In this document: piece by piece, positions 18,311 to 26,006 of the stretch | Position numbering within the stretch: the stretch's first letter is position 1 | How the letters are laid out: each line of letters opens with the position of its first letter | Assembly: GCF_016427505.1 (NCBI RefSeq) | Contig: NZ_JAELXS010000002.1 | Coordinates: forward strand, 310,001 to 374,000 | Length of the DNA stretch: 64,000 nucleotides | Direction of reading: 5' to 3' | Origin: Sphingomonas mollis | Lineage (GTDB): Bacteria > Pseudomonadota > Alphaproteobacteria > Sphingomonadales > Sphingomonadaceae | Translations under genes and position numbers: made by a program | The notes under the pieces: model-generated | Seen by the model: only the letters and a program-made list of their open reading frames with translations | What the model was told of the DNA's origin: nothing | Databases searched by the model: none

Positions 18311-19243
18311 GTGGCATCCGTGTTGCCGCTTATCCTGATCCTGCAAGCCGCCGCGCCCGGTGCGGCCACGCCGCCCGCGCCGCCGTCCGGCCCGACCGAT
18401 GCGGGGGCGATGATCCCCGAATCGATCCGCGCGATGCTGGATGCCGCGCTGGAATCGGGGAACGACGGCGATGTCTCCACCATCGTCCGCTATGCGCGGT
18501 CGGCCGATCCGTTGAGCGGCGACGCGGTGCTGGCCATCGCGGAGAAATGGCGCGCCGACCGCGCCGCCGCGCGCGAACAGGTGATCCGTCAGGCGAGTTT
18601 CCTGAACCTGTGGAAGGGTCGCGCGGAGGTGGGCGGGTTCGTCACGACGGGCAATTCGGATACTGCGGGTGGCAGCGCGGTGCTGGCGGCGGAGCGTGAG
18701 GGGCTGCAATGGCGGCACAAGTTCCGGGCACAGGCGGATTACCAGGAAAGCCTGAACGTCACGACGCGCGAGCATTACCTGATCTCGTACGAGCCCAACT
18801 ACAAGTTCGACGACCGCGCCTATGTCTATGGCGCGGTCCAGTATGAGAGCGACCGGTTCCTGGGCTATAACGACCGTCTGTCGATATCGAGTGGTGCCGG
18901 TTACAGCCTGGTCAAGGGACCACGGACGCAGCTCGATCTGGAACTGGGGCCGGCATATCGGCACACCGCCTTCACGGACGACACCATCCAGTCGAGCATC
19001 GCCGGGCGTGGATCGCTCGATTTCCGCTGGCAGATACTGGGCGGCCTGACGCTGAGGGAACAGGCATCCGCCTATGTCCAGCGGTTCAATTCGACGGTCA
19101 GCAGCATGACCGCGATCAACGCCAAGCTGCTCGGGCCGCTGTCGGCGCAACTGTCGTACAACGTGCAATATGAAAGCATGCCGCCGGTCGGGCGGGAGAC
19201 GACGGACACCATCAGCCGCGCCTCGCTGGTCTATTCGTTCTGA
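18311..19243 (+). CDS. DUF481 outer-membrane beta-barrel protein (YdiY-like)
   Basis: A 310-aa protein with a hydrophobic N-terminus (start GTG, residues 1-20), a Pro/Ala-rich segment, and a region of alternating beta strands from about residue 95 on. The segment begins LWKGRAEVGGFVTTGNSDTAGGSA, typical of DUF481 (salt-induced outer membrane protein type), and ends in the phenylalanine-terminated strand ASLVYSF expected of a BAM substrate. The central barrel has aromatic girdle residues. Role unknown; family members are induced by salt in some bacteria. It follows rppH by 30 bases and precedes the M20 hydrolase by two. Confidence 0.85.
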   Translation: MASVLPLILILQAAAPGAATPPAPPSGPTDAGAMIPESIRAMLDAALESGNDGDVSTIVRYARSADPLSGDAVLAIAEKWRADRAAAREQVIRQASFLNLWKGRAEVGGFVTTGNSDTAGGSAVLAAEREGLQWRHKFRAQADYQESLNVTTREHYLISYEPNYKFDDRAYVYGAVQYESDRFLGYNDRLSISSGAGYSLVKGPRTQLDLELGPAYRHTAFTDDTIQSSIAGRGSLDFRWQILGGLTLREQASAYVQRFNSTVSSMTAINAKLLGPLSAQLSYNVQYESMPPVGRETTDTISRASLVYSF

Positions 19244-19245
19244 CC

Positions 19246-20454
19246 GTGGCGGCCCTCAGCGCCCTTGAGCGGTCCGTCACCGAACGGATCGACGGCGCGG
19301 CGATGCTGGCGCAGGTCGAGGCATGGGGCGCGATCAACAGCGGCACGCGCAACCTCGCCGGGCTGGCGACGATGGCGACCCGGCTGGCCGATGCCGCCGC
19401 CGCCCTGCCCGGCGACATCCGGCTGGTCGATCCGGTGCCGGTCGACAGCATCGGCGGCGACGGGCGCCGAATCATGCTGGATCACGGCCGGCATCTGGTG
19501 GTGACGGTGCGACCGGATGTGGCGACGCGATTGCTGTTCGTCGGCCATATGGACACGGTGTACGGCGTCGATCACCCGTTCCAGCACCTGACCTGGCGGC
19601 CGGACGGCGCGCTGGTCGGCCCCGGCGTCACCGACATGAAAGGCGGTCTGGCGGTGATGCTGGCCGCACTGACGGCGGTGGAGGCGGACGGCGGCGCGGC
19701 GGGGATCGGGTATGACATCCTCATCAATGCAGACGAGGAAACCGGATCGCTGTCGTCGTCGGCGCTGATCGCCGAGCTGGCGGCGGGCAAGCTGGCGGCG
19801 CTGGGCTACGAACCCGCGCTGGCGGACGGCACGCTGGCCGGCGCGCGGGGCGGCACCGGCAATTTCTCGATCGTGGTACGCGGGCGCAGCGCCCATGCCG
19901 GCCGCAACCCGGAAGATGGCCGCAACGCGGTCGTCGCCGCGTCCGACCTCGCGGTGCGGCTCGCTGCGGCGCGGGCGCCGATGCTGGGAGTCAACCCGGC
20001 GCGGATCGATGGCGGCGGCCCCAATAACATGGTGCCCGATCTCGCCGTCCTGCGCGTGAATTTCCGGCCGCGCGATGCCGAGGCGATCGCACAGGGTCGG
20101 GCGATACTGGACGAGACGGTGGCGACGATCGCCGGCGAGCATGACGTCGGCATCGACCTGCATGGCAGCTTCAATCGACCGCCCAAGCCGATCGATGCCG
20201 GCGCCGAACGCCTGTTCGCGCTGGTCGGTCGCGCCGGTGCCGATCTGGGGCTGACGATCGGCCGGCGCGATACCGGCGGCGTGTGCGACGGCAACAACGT
20301 CGCCGCCGCCGGCGTGCCGGTGGTCGATACGATGGGCGTTCGCGGCGGCGCGATCCATTCGAGCGACGAATTCCTGCTGGTCGACAGTCTGGTCGAACGG
20401 GCGGCCTTGTCGGCGGTCACCATCCTGCGACTGGCAAAAGGGGGGCTGGCATGA
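19246..20454 (+). CDS. M20-family metallopeptidase / amidohydrolase (carboxypeptidase G2-like)
   Basis: A 402-aa dizinc hydrolase starting at GTG. Metal ligands and base are in place: H101 in FVGHMDTVYG, D130 in GVTDMKGG, E164/E165 in NADEETGS, and a C-terminal histidine in GGAIHSSDEF. The dimerisation lid begins after GARGGTGNFSIVV with RSAHAGRNPEDG. Family members cleave N-acyl or glutamyl amides; DapE, an M20 enzyme, is a desuccinylase. Its stop overlaps astA (ATGA), which strongly suggests a role in the arginine succinyltransferase pathway, possibly cleaving N-succinylglutamate in place of AstE. That last step is my inference. Confidence 0.88.
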   Translation: MAALSALERSVTERIDGAAMLAQVEAWGAINSGTRNLAGLATMATRLADAAAALPGDIRLVDPVPVDSIGGDGRRIMLDHGRHLVVTVRPDVATRLLFVGHMDTVYGVDHPFQHLTWRPDGALVGPGVTDMKGGLAVMLAALTAVEADGGAAGIGYDILINADEETGSLSSSALIAELAAGKLAALGYEPALADGTLAGARGGTGNFSIVVRGRSAHAGRNPEDGRNAVVAASDLAVRLAAARAPMLGVNPARIDGGGPNNMVPDLAVLRVNFRPRDAEAIAQGRAILDETVATIAGEHDVGIDLHGSFNRPPKPIDAGAERLFALVGRAGADLGLTIGRRDTGGVCDGNNVAAAGVPVVDTMGVRGGAIHSSDEFLLVDSLVERAALSAVTILRLAKGGLA

Positions 20455-21476
20455 CGTTCCGCATCCGCGCCGCCACCGATGCCGATCTTCAGCATCTGTA
20501 CGAGATGGCGAAGCTGACGGGCGGCGGCTTCACCAACCTGCCGCCCGATCGCCGGTCGCTGAAGGCCAAGCTGGATCGCAGCCATACCGCCTTCGCCCGC
20601 ACCGAGGGGCCGGTGATCGACGAACTGTTCGTGCTGGTGCTCGAGAATACGAGGACCGGCGAGGTGCGCGGTACGTGCCAGTTGTTCACGCAGGTCGGCG
20701 AGCAGCATCCGTTCTACAGCTATCGCCTCGGCACGCTGACGCAGCACAGCCGCGAACTGGGGCGGACGTTTCGCGCCGAGATGCTGACGCTGACCACCGA
20801 TCTGGAAGGGTCGAGCGAAGTCGGCGGGCTGTTCCTTCATCCCGGCGAGCGCGCGGGCGGGCTCGGGCTGCTGCTCGCGCGGTCGCGATACCTGTTCATT
20901 GCCGCGCACCGGCCGCGTTTCGCCGATCGCATTCTGGCGGAGTTGCGCGGGGTGATCGACGAGGCGGGGGGATCGCCGTTCTGGGACGGGCTGGCCGGGC
21001 GCTTCTTCGGGATGAATTTTCAGGATGCCGACCAGTTCAATGCGATCAACGGGCATCAGTTCATCGCCGACCTGATGCCCAAGCACCCGATCTATACCGC
21101 CATGCTGTCCGACGGCGCCCGCGCTGCGATCGGCCTGCCGCACCCATCCGGGCGGGCGGCGATGCGGATGCTGGAGCATGAGGGGTTCCGGTACGAGGGT
21201 TATCTCGACATCTTCGATGGCGGCCCGACGATGACCGCGCGCACCGATCAGGTGACTTCGGTGCGCGGCGCGGCCGAGGCGCGCGTGGTGGCGATCGACG
21301 GCATGAACGACGGCGGCGGCGACGACGAATTGGTTGCCAGCGGTCGGCTGGCCGCATTCCGCTGCGCGTTCGGTCGGGTACGCGAGGTGGCGGACGGCGT
21401 CCTCCTGTCGCCCGACTGCGCCGCCGCGCTGGGGGTCGAGGCAGGGGACAGCGTGATGCGGGTCGGGCGATGGTAG
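20451..21476 (+). CDS. astA: Arginine N-succinyltransferase
   Basis: First step of the ammonia-producing AST pathway: arginine plus succinyl-CoA to N2-succinylarginine. The 341-aa protein matches AstA: MTFRIRAATDADLQHLYEMA at the start, GGGFTNLP, a GNAT-like core with SSEVGGLFLHPGERAGGLG, then FADRILAELRGV, SPFWDGLAGRFFGM and HPIYTAMLSDGARAAIG. The ATG at 20451 overlaps the M20 hydrolase stop; the longer frame from 20283 is a shadow. astB follows with minimal spacing, completing a tight three-gene unit. astC and astD are not in the window. Confidence 0.95.
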   Translation: MTFRIRAATDADLQHLYEMAKLTGGGFTNLPPDRRSLKAKLDRSHTAFARTEGPVIDELFVLVLENTRTGEVRGTCQLFTQVGEQHPFYSYRLGTLTQHSRELGRTFRAEMLTLTTDLEGSSEVGGLFLHPGERAGGLGLLLARSRYLFIAAHRPRFADRILAELRGVIDEAGGSPFWDGLAGRFFGMNFQDADQFNAINGHQFIADLMPKHPIYTAMLSDGARAAIGLPHPSGRAAMRMLEHEGFRYEGYLDIFDGGPTMTARTDQVTSVRGAAEARVVAIDGMNDGGGDDELVASGRLAAFRCAFGRVREVADGVLLSPDCAAALGVEAGDSVMRVGRW

Positions 21477-21484
21477 GGCTGCCG

Positions 21485-22741
21485 ATGACGGGACTGGTCG
21501 AGATCAATTTCGACGGCATCATCGGCCCCAGCCATAATTATGCCGGCCTCAGCCCCGGCAATCTGGCGGCGACGCGCAACGCCGGCAAGGTCGCGCACCC
21601 CCGCGCCGCCGCGTTGCAGGGGATCGCCAAGATGCGCGCCAACCTGTCGCTGGGGCTGGTGCAGGGTATCCTGCCGCCGCACCCCCGCCCCGACCACCGC
21701 TGGCTTGCCGCCCTCGCCACCGATTACGATCGCGCGCCGATCCATCTGAAGGCGCAGGCATTGTCCGCGTCGGCGATGTGGGCGGCCAACGCCGCCACCG
21801 TCTCGCCCGCCCCGGACACAGGCGACGGTCGCTGCCACCTGACGGTCGCCAATCTGGTGACGATGGCGCATCGCAGCCATGAATGGCCGGCGACGCTGGC
21901 GATGCTGCGCATGGCGTTCGCCGACCCCGCGTTTGCCGTCCACCCGCCGGTGCCCGCGCCGTTCGGGGACGAGGGCGCCGCCAACCACATGCGGCTGACC
22001 GATCATCACGGTGCCGCCGGCGTCGAGATATTCGTCTATGGCGAAGCGGGCGGCCCCTTCCCCGCGCGGCAGTCGCGCGAGGCGAGCGAGGCGGTGGCGC
22101 GCGCGCATGGGTTGGACCCGGCGCGCACGCTGTTCGTGGAGCAGTCCGCCGCCGCGATCGCCGCCGGTGCGTTCCACAACGATGTCGTCGCGGTCGCCAA
22201 CGAACGCGTGCTGTTCGCGCATGAACAGGCGTTCGCCGATCCGGCGCAGGTGTATGCCGACCTCCGCCGCCTGCTTCCCGCGATCGAGATCGTCGAGGTG
22301 CCGGCCGCCGCCGTCAGCCTGCAGGATGCGATCACGTCGTACCTGTTCAACGCGCAGCTCGTCTCGACCGGGGATGGCGCGACGCTGGTCCTGCCCGACG
22401 AGGCGCGCGCGAACGCCGCGGTGTGGCGATGGCTGGAGCGGCATGTGGCCGGCAACGGCCCGATCCGCCGGCTGCATGTGGTCGATGTCCGCGAATCGAT
22501 GGCCAATGGTGGTGGCCCTGCGTGCCTGCGGCTGCGGGTCGTCGCCGATCCGGCCACGATCGACCCGCGCTTTCTGGTCGATGACAGCAAGCTGGACCGG
22601 ATCGCCGCGCTGGTGGCGGAGGCGTGGCCGGAGGCGATCGCGGCCGATGCGATCGGCGATCCTGCGCTGATCGCCGTCATCGAAGGCGCGCGTCGTCGGT
22701 TGCTGGGCCTGCTTGATCTGGGTGAGTTGATCGACGCCTAG
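21485..22741 (+). CDS. astB: N-succinylarginine dihydrolase
   Basis: Second AST step: succinylarginine to succinylornithine, two ammonia and carbon dioxide. 418 aa, guanidino-group hydrolase fold. Diagnostic: VEINFDGIIGPSHNYAGLSPGN at the start (split here for length), a histidine in AFHNDVVAVAN, and the catalytic cysteine in GGGPACLRLR. An ATG at 21470 overlaps the astA stop, but the ATG at 21485 puts the conserved VEINFDG at the family position and has AGGG in good spacing (21475-21478), so I chose it. A repeat-bearing non-coding stretch follows. Confidence 0.94.
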   Translation: MTGLVEINFDGIIGPSHNYAGLSPGNLAATRNAGKVAHPRAAALQGIAKMRANLSLGLVQGILPPHPRPDHRWLAALATDYDRAPIHLKAQALSASAMWAANAATVSPAPDTGDGRCHLTVANLVTMAHRSHEWPATLAMLRMAFADPAFAVHPPVPAPFGDEGAANHMRLTDHHGAAGVEIFVYGEAGGPFPARQSREASEAVARAHGLDPARTLFVEQSAAAIAAGAFHNDVVAVANERVLFAHEQAFADPAQVYADLRRLLPAIEIVEVPAAAVSLQDAITSYLFNAQLVSTGDGATLVLPDEARANAAVWRWLERHVAGNGPIRRLHVVDVRESMANGGGPACLRLRVVADPATIDPRFLVDDSKLDRIAALVAEAWPEAIAADAIGDPALIAVIEGARRRLLGLLDLGELIDA

Positions 22742-23191: not shown

Positions 23192-24091
23192 ATGAGCACG
23201 CTCACCCATCTGCAACGCCTCGAAGCCGAGAGCATCCATATCCTGCGCGAGGTCGTCGCCGAGACCGAGCGACCGGTGATGCTGTATTCGGTCGGCAAGG
23301 ATTCGGCGGTGATGCTGCATCTGGCGAAGAAGGCGTTCGCGCCGGGCAAGCCGCCCTTCCCGCTGCTGCATGTCGACACGACGTGGAAATTCCGCGCGAT
23401 GTACGACCTGCGCGACCGGGCCGCCGCCGAGGCCGGCATGGAACTGATCGTCCATCGCAACCCGGAGGCGGAGGCGCAGGCGATCAACCCGTTCGATCAT
23501 GGCGGCCGCCACACCGACATGTGGAAGACGGAGGGGCTGAAACAGGCGCTGACGCTGGGCGGGTACGACGCCGCCTTCGGTGGCGCGAGACGTGACGAGG
23601 AGAAGAGCCGGGCGAAGGAGCGCATCTTCTCGTTCCGCTCCGCCAGCCATGGCTGGGACCCCAAGGCGCAGCGGCCGGAATTGTGGCGGTTGTACAATAC
23701 CCGCCTGAACCGCGGCGAATCGCTGCGCGTGTTTCCGCTGTCGAACTGGACCGAGCTGGATATCTGGCAGTACATCCTGGCCGAGGGGATCGAGATCGTC
23801 CCCCTTTATTTCGCCGCGCCGCGCCCGACCGTGGAGCGCGACGGCATGTTGCTGATGGTCGATGACGACCGGTTCCGGCTGCATCCCGGCGAGGTGCCGG
23901 TGGAGCGGTCGATCCGTTTCCGGACGCTCGGCTGTTACCCGCTGACCGGCGCGGTCGAGAGCGAGGCGGATACGCTGTCCGCGATCATCCAGGAGATGCT
24001 GTTGACGACCACGTCGGAGCGGCAGGGCCGGGCGATCGATCACGATCAGTCGGGCAGCATGGAAAAGAAGAAGCGCGAGGGATATTTCTGA
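23192..24091 (+). CDS. cysD: Sulfate adenylyltransferase subunit 2
   Basis: Small subunit of ATP sulfurylase, making adenosine 5'-phosphosulfate from sulfate and ATP, driven by the GTPase CysN. The 299-aa protein has the PAPS-reductase/PP-loop fold: pyrophosphate loop [66 protein letters not shown], and [11 protein letters not shown], all CysD signatures. It ends KKKREGYF, the usual terminus. cysNC begins one base after its stop (TGAcATG), so the two are coupled. Confidence 0.97.
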
Positions 24092-24092
24092 C

Positions 24093-26006
24093 ATGACGGC
24101 CTATCGCCCCGATGCGCTCGTCGCCGAGGATATCGACGCCTATCTGGCGGGCCACGCCGCCAAGACGATGCTGCGCTTCATCACCTGCGGGTCGGTGGAC
24201 GACGGCAAGTCGACGCTGATCGGCCGCCTGCTGTACGATTCGCGCGCGATCTTCGAGGATCAGCTGGCGGCGCTGGAGGCGGATTCGGCGCGGGTCGGCA
24301 CGCAAGGGACGAATATCGATTTCGCGTTGCTGGTCGACGGCCTGACAGCCGAGCGCGAGCAGGGCATCACGATCGACGTCGCCTATCGCTTCTTCGCGAC
24401 CGAGCGACGCAAATTCATCGTCGCCGACACGCCCGGCCACGAACAATATACCCGCAACATGGTGACGGGCGCCTCGACCGCCGACTGCGCCGTCATCCTG
24501 ATCGATGCGCGCAAGGGCGTGCTGACCCAGACGCGGCGGCACAGCTATCTGGCGAACCTCGTCGGTATCCGTGAGATCGTGCTGGCGGTGAACAAGATGG
24601 ATCTGGTCGGCTACGACCAGTCCGTGTTCGACAGCATCGTCGAGGAATATCGCGCCTTTGCCGCCTCGATCGGCATCGACCGCTTCACCGCCATTCCGCT
24701 GTCAGGCCTGACCGGCGCGAACGTGACCGAACGCGCCGATGCCATGCCCTGGTATGCGGGGCCGACGCTGCTCCAGCATCTGGAGGTCGTGCCGGTCGAT
24801 ACCGATCGCGCGGCGACGCGGCCGTTCCGCCTGCCGGTGCAATGGGTCAACCGGCCCGATCTGGACTTTCGCGGGTTCGCCGGCATGATCGCGGCCGGAT
24901 CGGTCAGCGTCGGCGAGCGGGTCCGCATCGTCCCGTCGGGCCGCACCACGCAGGTGGCGCGGATCATCGGTGCGGACGGCGAGCGCACCCGGGCGGTGGC
25001 CGGCGAGGCGGTGACGGTGACGCTGGCGGACGAGGTCGATTGCTCGCGCGGCGACGTGATCGCCGCCGCCGACAGCCCCCCGGCGATCGCCGACCAGTTC
25101 GTCGCGACGATCGTCTGGCTGGCCGACCAGCCAATGGTGCAGGGTCGCGGTTACTGGCTGAAACTCGGCACGCAGATGGTCAACGCGACCGTCCAGCCGC
25201 CCCGCTACGTGATCGACGTGAATACGCAGGCCGAATTGTCGGCCACCACGCTGGAACTGAACGATATCGGCGTGGCCGAGGTCTATTGCGACCGCCAGAT
25301 CGTGTTCGAACCCTATGCCGATGGCGTCGATCTGGGTGGCTTCATCCTGATCGACCGCGCGACCAACGCGACCGTCGCAGCGGGGATGATCGATCAGGCG
25401 CTGCGCCGCTCGGGCGATGTCCACTGGCAGTCGATCGACGTGACGCGCGAGGCGCATGCGTCCCAGAAGGGACAGAGCCCGCGCGTGCTGTGGTTCACCG
25501 GCCTGTCCGGATCGGGCAAGTCGACGATCGCCAATCTGGTCGAACGGAAACTGCACGCACTCGGCCGCCACAGCTTCCTGCTCGACGGCGATAATATCCG
25601 CCACGGTTTGAACCGCGATCTCGATTTCTCCGAGGCCGGGCGGATCGAAAATGTCCGGCGGGTGGGAGAGGTGGCGCGGTTGATGGCGGATGCGGGGCTG
25701 ATCGTCCTCACCGCCTTCATCTCGCCCTTCCGCGCCGAACGTGACATGGTGCGCGGCATGTTGCCGGTCGGGGAATTCGTCGAAATCTTTGTCGATACCC
25801 CGCTGGCCGTGGCGGAGGCGCGTGACGTGAAGGGGCTGTATGCCAAGGCGCGAGCCGGCCAGATCGCCGATTTCACCGGCATCTCCAGCCCGTACGAAGC
25901 GCCTGCCCGGCCGGATATCCGCATCGACACGACGCGCGAGACGCCGGAAACGGCAGCCGAGCGGATCGTGGAGCATGTGATCGGCATCTGGAGCCCCGAC
26001 CTTTGA
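24093..26006 (+). CDS. cysNC: Bifunctional sulfate adenylyltransferase subunit 1 / adenylylsulfate kinase
   Basis: A 637-aa fusion of CysN (GTPase subunit of ATP sulfurylase) and CysC (APS kinase, making PAPS). The CysN part has P-loop GSVDDGKS at 33-40, switch DTPGHEQY at 112-119 and NKMD at 167-170, followed by translation-factor beta barrels. The CysC part begins near residue 455, with its own P-loop GLSGSGKS at 470-477, then [17 protein letters not shown] and [10 protein letters not shown]. Fused CysNC is common in alphaproteobacteria. Its TGA overlaps the TTG start of cysQ. Confidence 0.96.

Follow-up and report, generated by a model that had tools for sequence, protein, structure and literature searches.

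The locus and the question it raises

In a bacterium that carries astA and astB and in which no astE can be found, which enzyme completes the arginine succinyltransferase (AST) pathway? The question is raised by a 64,000-nucleotide stretch of Sphingomonas mollis DNA (contig NZ_JAELXS010000002.1, positions 310,001 to 374,000; here called the window, in whose numbering coordinates are given). On its plus strand, a gene for an M20 metallo-hydrolase of family NF005602 (19246-20454, GTG start, 402 amino acids) directly precedes astA, encoding arginine N-succinyltransferase (20451-21476), which is followed by astB, encoding N-succinylarginine dihydrolase (21470-22741). We propose, with a probability of roughly 85%, that the M20 protein is the N-succinylglutamate desuccinylase of the AST pathway, an enzyme of the carboxypeptidase G2 (CPG2) type that stands in for the non-homologous AstE; the activity is a prediction. 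The enzyme would use water to split N-succinyl-L-glutamate into succinate and L-glutamate. For its substrate it would depend on the AstA and AstB encoded beside it, on AstD, whose gene lies elsewhere in the genome, and on a general aminotransferase of the ArgD/AstC type.

The M20 stop codon and the astA start codon share the ATGA at 20451-20454, an overlap that the first-pass annotation of this DNA had reported and that our coordinates confirm. The end of astA and the listed start of astB overlap by seven bases; a second in-frame ATG, at 21485, may be the astB start instead. The three genes are presumably co-transcribed. Judged by their Pfam scores, the products of the second and third genes are certainly AstA (PF04958, 429.5 bits) and AstB (PF04996, 554.3 bits). 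Each passed the cut-off of a subfamily model, AstA with 364.3 bits against TIGR03243 (cut-off 284.35) and AstB with 521.1 bits against NF009789 (cut-off 452). Neither reached the stricter equivalog model, AstA scoring 311.8 bits against TIGR03244 (cut-off 391) and AstB 422.2 bits against TIGR03241 (cut-off 538.3).

Family and predicted fold of the M20 protein

Full membership of NF005602 (PRK07338) is indicated for the M20 protein by 522.3 bits over residues 5-401, the curated cut-off being 357. NF005602 is an NCBIfam equivalog labelled just "hydrolase", a title that gives neither substrate nor pathway. Scores against other M20 families were under their cut-offs: 166 bits for the glutamate carboxypeptidase NF004788 (PRK06133; cut-off 349), 126.7 bits for NF005678, and about 80 bits or less for the DapE and ArgE models, including 39.7 bits for DapE TIGR01246 (cut-off 361.8). 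Pfam domains M20 (PF01546) and M20_dimer (PF07687) were above cut-off, and a Pfam scan at E<=0.001 returned M20, M20_dimer and Peptidase_M28 only, with no AstE/AspA match. AstE differs from the M20 protein in belonging to a separate family, while resembling it in the proposed reaction and pathway position. In a tree that also included a CPG2 fragment and 15 outgroup M20 proteins, the 21 NF005602 members grouped as one clade (support 100/99), with long branches flagged for CPG2 and for two loci (L014 and L006). Among the matches listed, the nearest named relative is a Sphingomonas protein with 77% identity; the nearest solved structure by sequence is CPG2 (E 1.1e-24).

The AlphaFold2 model of the M20 protein had a mean predicted local distance difference test score (pLDDT) of 94.3 and a predicted template modelling score (pTM) of 0.90. 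CPG2 entries were its top solved relatives (Foldseek E 4.3e-33), and VIA-align superimposed the model on CPG2 with Z 45.1 over 382 residues at 3.7 A. A putative acetylornithine deacetylase (Z 37.2) and DapE (Z 36.1) followed. The first-pass annotation had argued for an AstE replacement by analogy with DapE, an M20 enzyme that removes a succinyl group. DapE (5vo3, 8f8o) does have the M20 fold, a di-zinc site and a reaction that strips succinate from an amino acid. It was rejected as the closest analogy, since its models score far under cut-off and CPG2 is nearer by both sequence and fold; the replacement itself is supported by the distributions described below. CPG2 releases glutamate from N-acyl-glutamates, a class that includes N-succinylglutamate, and the proposed reaction is chemically the more natural for it.

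The search for astE and the distribution of the two enzymes

The source genome (G000) is assembled into 24 contigs totalling 3.94 Mb. Searched whole at E<=0.001 with TIGR03242 and with PF04952, it gave no AstE match. Its astD (G000:C19:211594-212907; 604.3 bits, cut-off 579.3) lies on a separate contig, and tblastn found no further ast gene in the surrounding 16 kb. For astC the search was confined to the window, where tblastn at E<=1e-5 found no AstC-like aminotransferase relative. ArgD and AstC, both aminotransferases, have overlapping functions in E. coli. The earlier statement that astC, astD and astE are absent from the window holds, and the genome-wide search for astE that it recommended has come up empty.

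Two genome samples were then compared. In a phylum sample of 299 genomes, AstE was counted at E<=1e-10 with TIGR03242, the profile applied also to the source genome and to six chosen genomes, and scoring against NF005602 was limited to at most five first-look candidates in each genome. AstB was present in 61 genomes, AstE in 45 (35 of them above cut-off), and NF005602 was above cut-off in 21. AstE and NF005602 occupied complementary sets of the 61 AstB genomes: 39 had AstE (four of these matches under the curated cut-off), 21 had NF005602, none had both, and one (G110) had neither. AstB in G110 is a weaker match (422.5 bits), whose 16 kb surroundings yielded no M20 gene and no further ast gene by tblastn. 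No NF005602 genome lacked AstB (0/21); six AstE genomes did, all with AstE matches under cut-off. In an order sample of 128 genomes, AstB was found in 86 and NF005602 in 82, with 81 shared; AstD was found in 87 (84 above cut-off). AstE, sought here with the 76-position domain PF04952, was above cut-off in none of the 128. The controls behaved accordingly, NF005602, AstB and AstD being matched in Caulobacter and AstE not, and AstE, AstB and AstD being matched in E. coli with NF005602 not above cut-off. Fisher tests of the profile gave p values of 2e-15 and 1e-26; these ignore relatedness and are hence not relied on. The non-homologous swap suggested by the first-pass annotation is supported by these distributions.

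Gene order and linkage

The three-gene order was also to be checked for conservation, and it is conserved. In the order sample, 79 of 83 NF005602 copies were on the same contig as AstB and within 6 kb of it. Two of the four unlinked copies (G142 and G239) are on the minus strand and start less than 700 bases from the contig start, the side on which astA would follow. In a third (G219), AstD is beside the NF005602 copy and AstB is on another contig. The fourth is in G225, the only order genome with NF005602 and without AstB; there the order is M20-astA-astD, and the contig ends inside astD. NF005602 is therefore both linked to and found together with astA, astB and astD.

Finer detail came from related loci, the best 80 of 584 that matched. 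Because they were chosen in this way, with M20 proteins 58-77% identical to that of the window, they are not independent. All 80 had astA directly after the M20 gene, which ruled out a chance adjacency, and the astA match began anywhere from 4 bases ahead of the end of the M20 stop codon to 17 bases past it. In 79 of them (the exception being L147) there is a start codon, in frame with astA, that has a four-base overlap with the M20 stop. Related Sphingomonadaceae loci have the window's order, M20-astA-astB; several other families have M20-astA-astD-astB, and so do some genomes of the window's family. In one genome (G401) the M20 gene is present on a different contig from astA-astD-astB. No astB was found within 9 kb downstream of M20-astA in ten of the 80 loci (L097, L099, L100, L102, L103, L106, L110, L111, L126 and L141), which makes M20 and astA the tighter pair.

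Two further arrangements stand out. In L169 (8093-10200), two overlapping M20 matches of the same family, with 339 and 399 aligned residues, stand ahead of astA, as if the M20 gene were partly duplicated. In one genome (G175; L093 and L094) NF005602 occurs twice and AstB is matched three times; one of its clusters, ordered M20-aminotransferase-astD-astB-astA, appears to be a second AST set in rearranged order.

The conservation of AstD bears on the possibility that the M20 protein acts earlier, hydrolysing succinylornithine or succinylarginine in an ArgE-like short circuit of the pathway. Its M20 relatives include ArgE and DapE, and DapE strips a succinyl group according to PMC4012986. AstD, however, is required only past transamination; of 86 order-sample genomes with AstB, 85 keep it, and several families have it within the cluster itself. 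With the low ArgE and DapE scores given above, and with CPG2 rather than ArgE as the nearest fold, we consider such a short circuit very unlikely.

Occurrence in another lineage

A genome outside the window's class (G456) has the order aminotransferase-M20-astA-astD-astB. Its aminotransferase passed NF002325 (557.3 bits, cut-off 372) and TIGR00707, and did not pass the AstC model TIGR03246 (428 bits, cut-off 609.95). NF005602 was above cut-off in three of 32 genomes of that order (G456, G547 and G554), which represent two families and share this gene order; the aminotransferases of G547 and G554 were named by tblastn only. In G547 a 135-amino-acid open frame sits between astD and astB. The E. 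coli operon is astC-A-D-B-E, and by comparison the M20 gene of the G456-type cluster replaces astE in an otherwise complete set.

The same order holds weaker M20 relatives. Eight matches (L198-L205, from G563, G559, G558 and others) scored 250-285 bits against NF005602, under cut-off. For one of them (L208) the surroundings showed no ast gene, and an open frame of 488 amino acids follows it.

These clusters also speak to a different role, in which the M20 protein would feed the pathway by splitting peptides or N-acyl-arginine to yield arginine (or glutamate), leaving the hydrolysis of succinylglutamate to some enzyme not yet recognised. M20 enzymes include many peptidases and aminoacylases, and the gene stands ahead of astA, not after astB, as a feeder might. 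Such a role leaves unexplained why AstE and NF005602 occur together in none of 60 genomes and why none of the 128 order genomes has an above-cut-off AstE. It also fits poorly with an M20 gene embedded in a full C-A-D-B set in G456, G547 and G554 and with a nearest fold that is that of an N-acyl-glutamate hydrolase. We regard it as improbable.

Active site

The first-pass annotation had counted all metal ligands as present, and the alignment with CPG2 agrees: H112, D141, E176, E200 and H385 of CPG2 correspond to H101, D130, E165, E189 and H371 of the M20 protein, and CPG2 E175, at the position of the general base or catalytic Glu, corresponds to E164. All six residues are invariant in the 21 NF005602 members. 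R324, R288, N275 and H229 of CPG2 align with R311, R274, N261 and H217, each likewise found in 21/21. Further positions, among them R220, R270, K314, C347 and N351, are invariant in NF005602 and rare among the 15 outgroup proteins.

These positions suggest how the enzyme might work. H101, D130, E165, E189 and H371 would bind two zinc ions that polarise the amide carbonyl, and E164 would activate water. The protein is probably a dimer, in which R311 of one subunit and N261 and H217 contributed by the other would together grip the glutamate part of the substrate. By alignment R201, R220, R270, R274, R311 and K314 are candidate carboxylate binders; the family-specific R220, R270 and K314, with R201, may hold the other carboxylates. 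N-succinylglutamate has three carboxylates, and additional conserved basic residues fit that number. In CPG2, R324 is in the small domain and R288 of one monomer touches H229 and N275 of the other, as described in a review (PMC6271292). For DapE, an Arg was suggested to contact substrate carboxylates (PMC4012986), and that Arg may be the counterpart of R201.

CPG2 (1cg2, 6xj5) thus resembles the M20 protein in predicted fold, metal ligands and the equivalents of Arg324, Arg288, Asn275 and His229. The two differ in that identity over the aligned model is about 27% and that CPG2 has other residues where the M20 family has its invariant R220, R270, K314, C347 and N351. Since CPG2 is nearest in both sequence and fold, the protein might be thought a housekeeping carboxypeptidase for folate or p-aminobenzoate-glutamate that is linked to astA without sharing its chemistry. 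Against this, none of the 21 NF005602 genomes in the phylum sample lacks AstB, G401 has the gene although it is unlinked there, and the family has invariant residues seldom seen in the 15 outgroup M20 enzymes. We consider this explanation extremely unlikely.

Exceptions and counter-evidence

Several observations weigh against the proposed AstE replacement. The mutual exclusion of AstE and NF005602 is largely confounded with ancestry: 20 of the 21 NF005602 genomes in the phylum sample belong to the window's class and one to another lineage, so the profile mostly reflects descent. Two AstE genomes (G477 and G524) hold M20 relatives scoring 275.7 and 271.8 bits, against the NF005602 cut-off of 357. 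AstE-like stretches far under cut-off occur in G213 (28.4 bits), in G177 (18 bits) and in G255, a genome with no AstB listed, whose PF04952 match scores 20.9 bits. Most of the CPG2-like substrate residues are widespread as well: R311 is found in 11 of the 15 outgroup M20 proteins, R274, N261 and H217 each in all 15, and an Arg at the R201 position in 14. Being common to most outgroup proteins, R311, R274, N261 and H217 are not diagnostic of glutamate. The positions of CPG2 K208 and S210 fall outside the 95%-conserved columns of NF005602, and the roles suggested for residues of the M20 protein come from alignment.

Five AstB genomes of the order sample have no NF005602 above cut-off. In two the site of the M20 gene is out of reach, the contig beginning inside astA in G177 and ending inside astD in G213. 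The other three (G149, G156 and G173; 95, 94 and 78% complete) belong to one family and hold ast genes with neither NF005602 nor AstE. Loci L175 (G173) and L176 (G149) have astA-astD-astB, and L179 (G156) has astA and part of astD; there is room beside astA and no M20 gene. The top M20 matches in G149, G156 and G173 score 138.5, 152 and 58.9 bits, and TIGR03242 at E<=0.01 found no AstE in any of them. Lacking either enzyme, these genomes possibly have a third solution, or sequence is missing. By eye, a gene with an epimerase-like start precedes astA in L175 and L179.

NF005602 quite likely serves as the usual succinylglutamate desuccinylase in Sphingomonadales, in Caulobacter and in certain other lineages, in which case some relatives that have astA, astD and astB and neither enzyme would use yet another solution.

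Neighbouring genes

A DUF481 protein, found by Pfam scan at 18311-19243, ends just ahead of the M20 start, and in 36 of the 80 related loci a relative is encoded on the strand of the M20 gene, no more than 100 bases upstream of it. Downstream, at 23192-26006, are open frames judged by eye to be cysD- and cysN/C-like (sulfate activation); a relative of the first is in the examined flanks of 13 of the 80 loci only.

Significance

Unrelated enzymes are known to take over one another's pathway steps. In the literature searched we found no prior report of an M20 protein replacing AstE; most subscription journals, preprints and supplements were outside that scope, and mutant-fitness collections may hold one. 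The main text of PMC9007349 contains neither "succinylglutamate" nor "astE". The family of G149, G156 and G173 possibly has a third way of removing the succinyl group. If the proposal is correct, it would give a function to a curated family now titled just "hydrolase", correct automatic reconstructions that call the AST pathway incomplete in these bacteria, and provide a clean and easily testable example of two unrelated families serving one pathway step. It would also fill the last-enzyme gap in an arginine-use pathway across a large group of bacteria.

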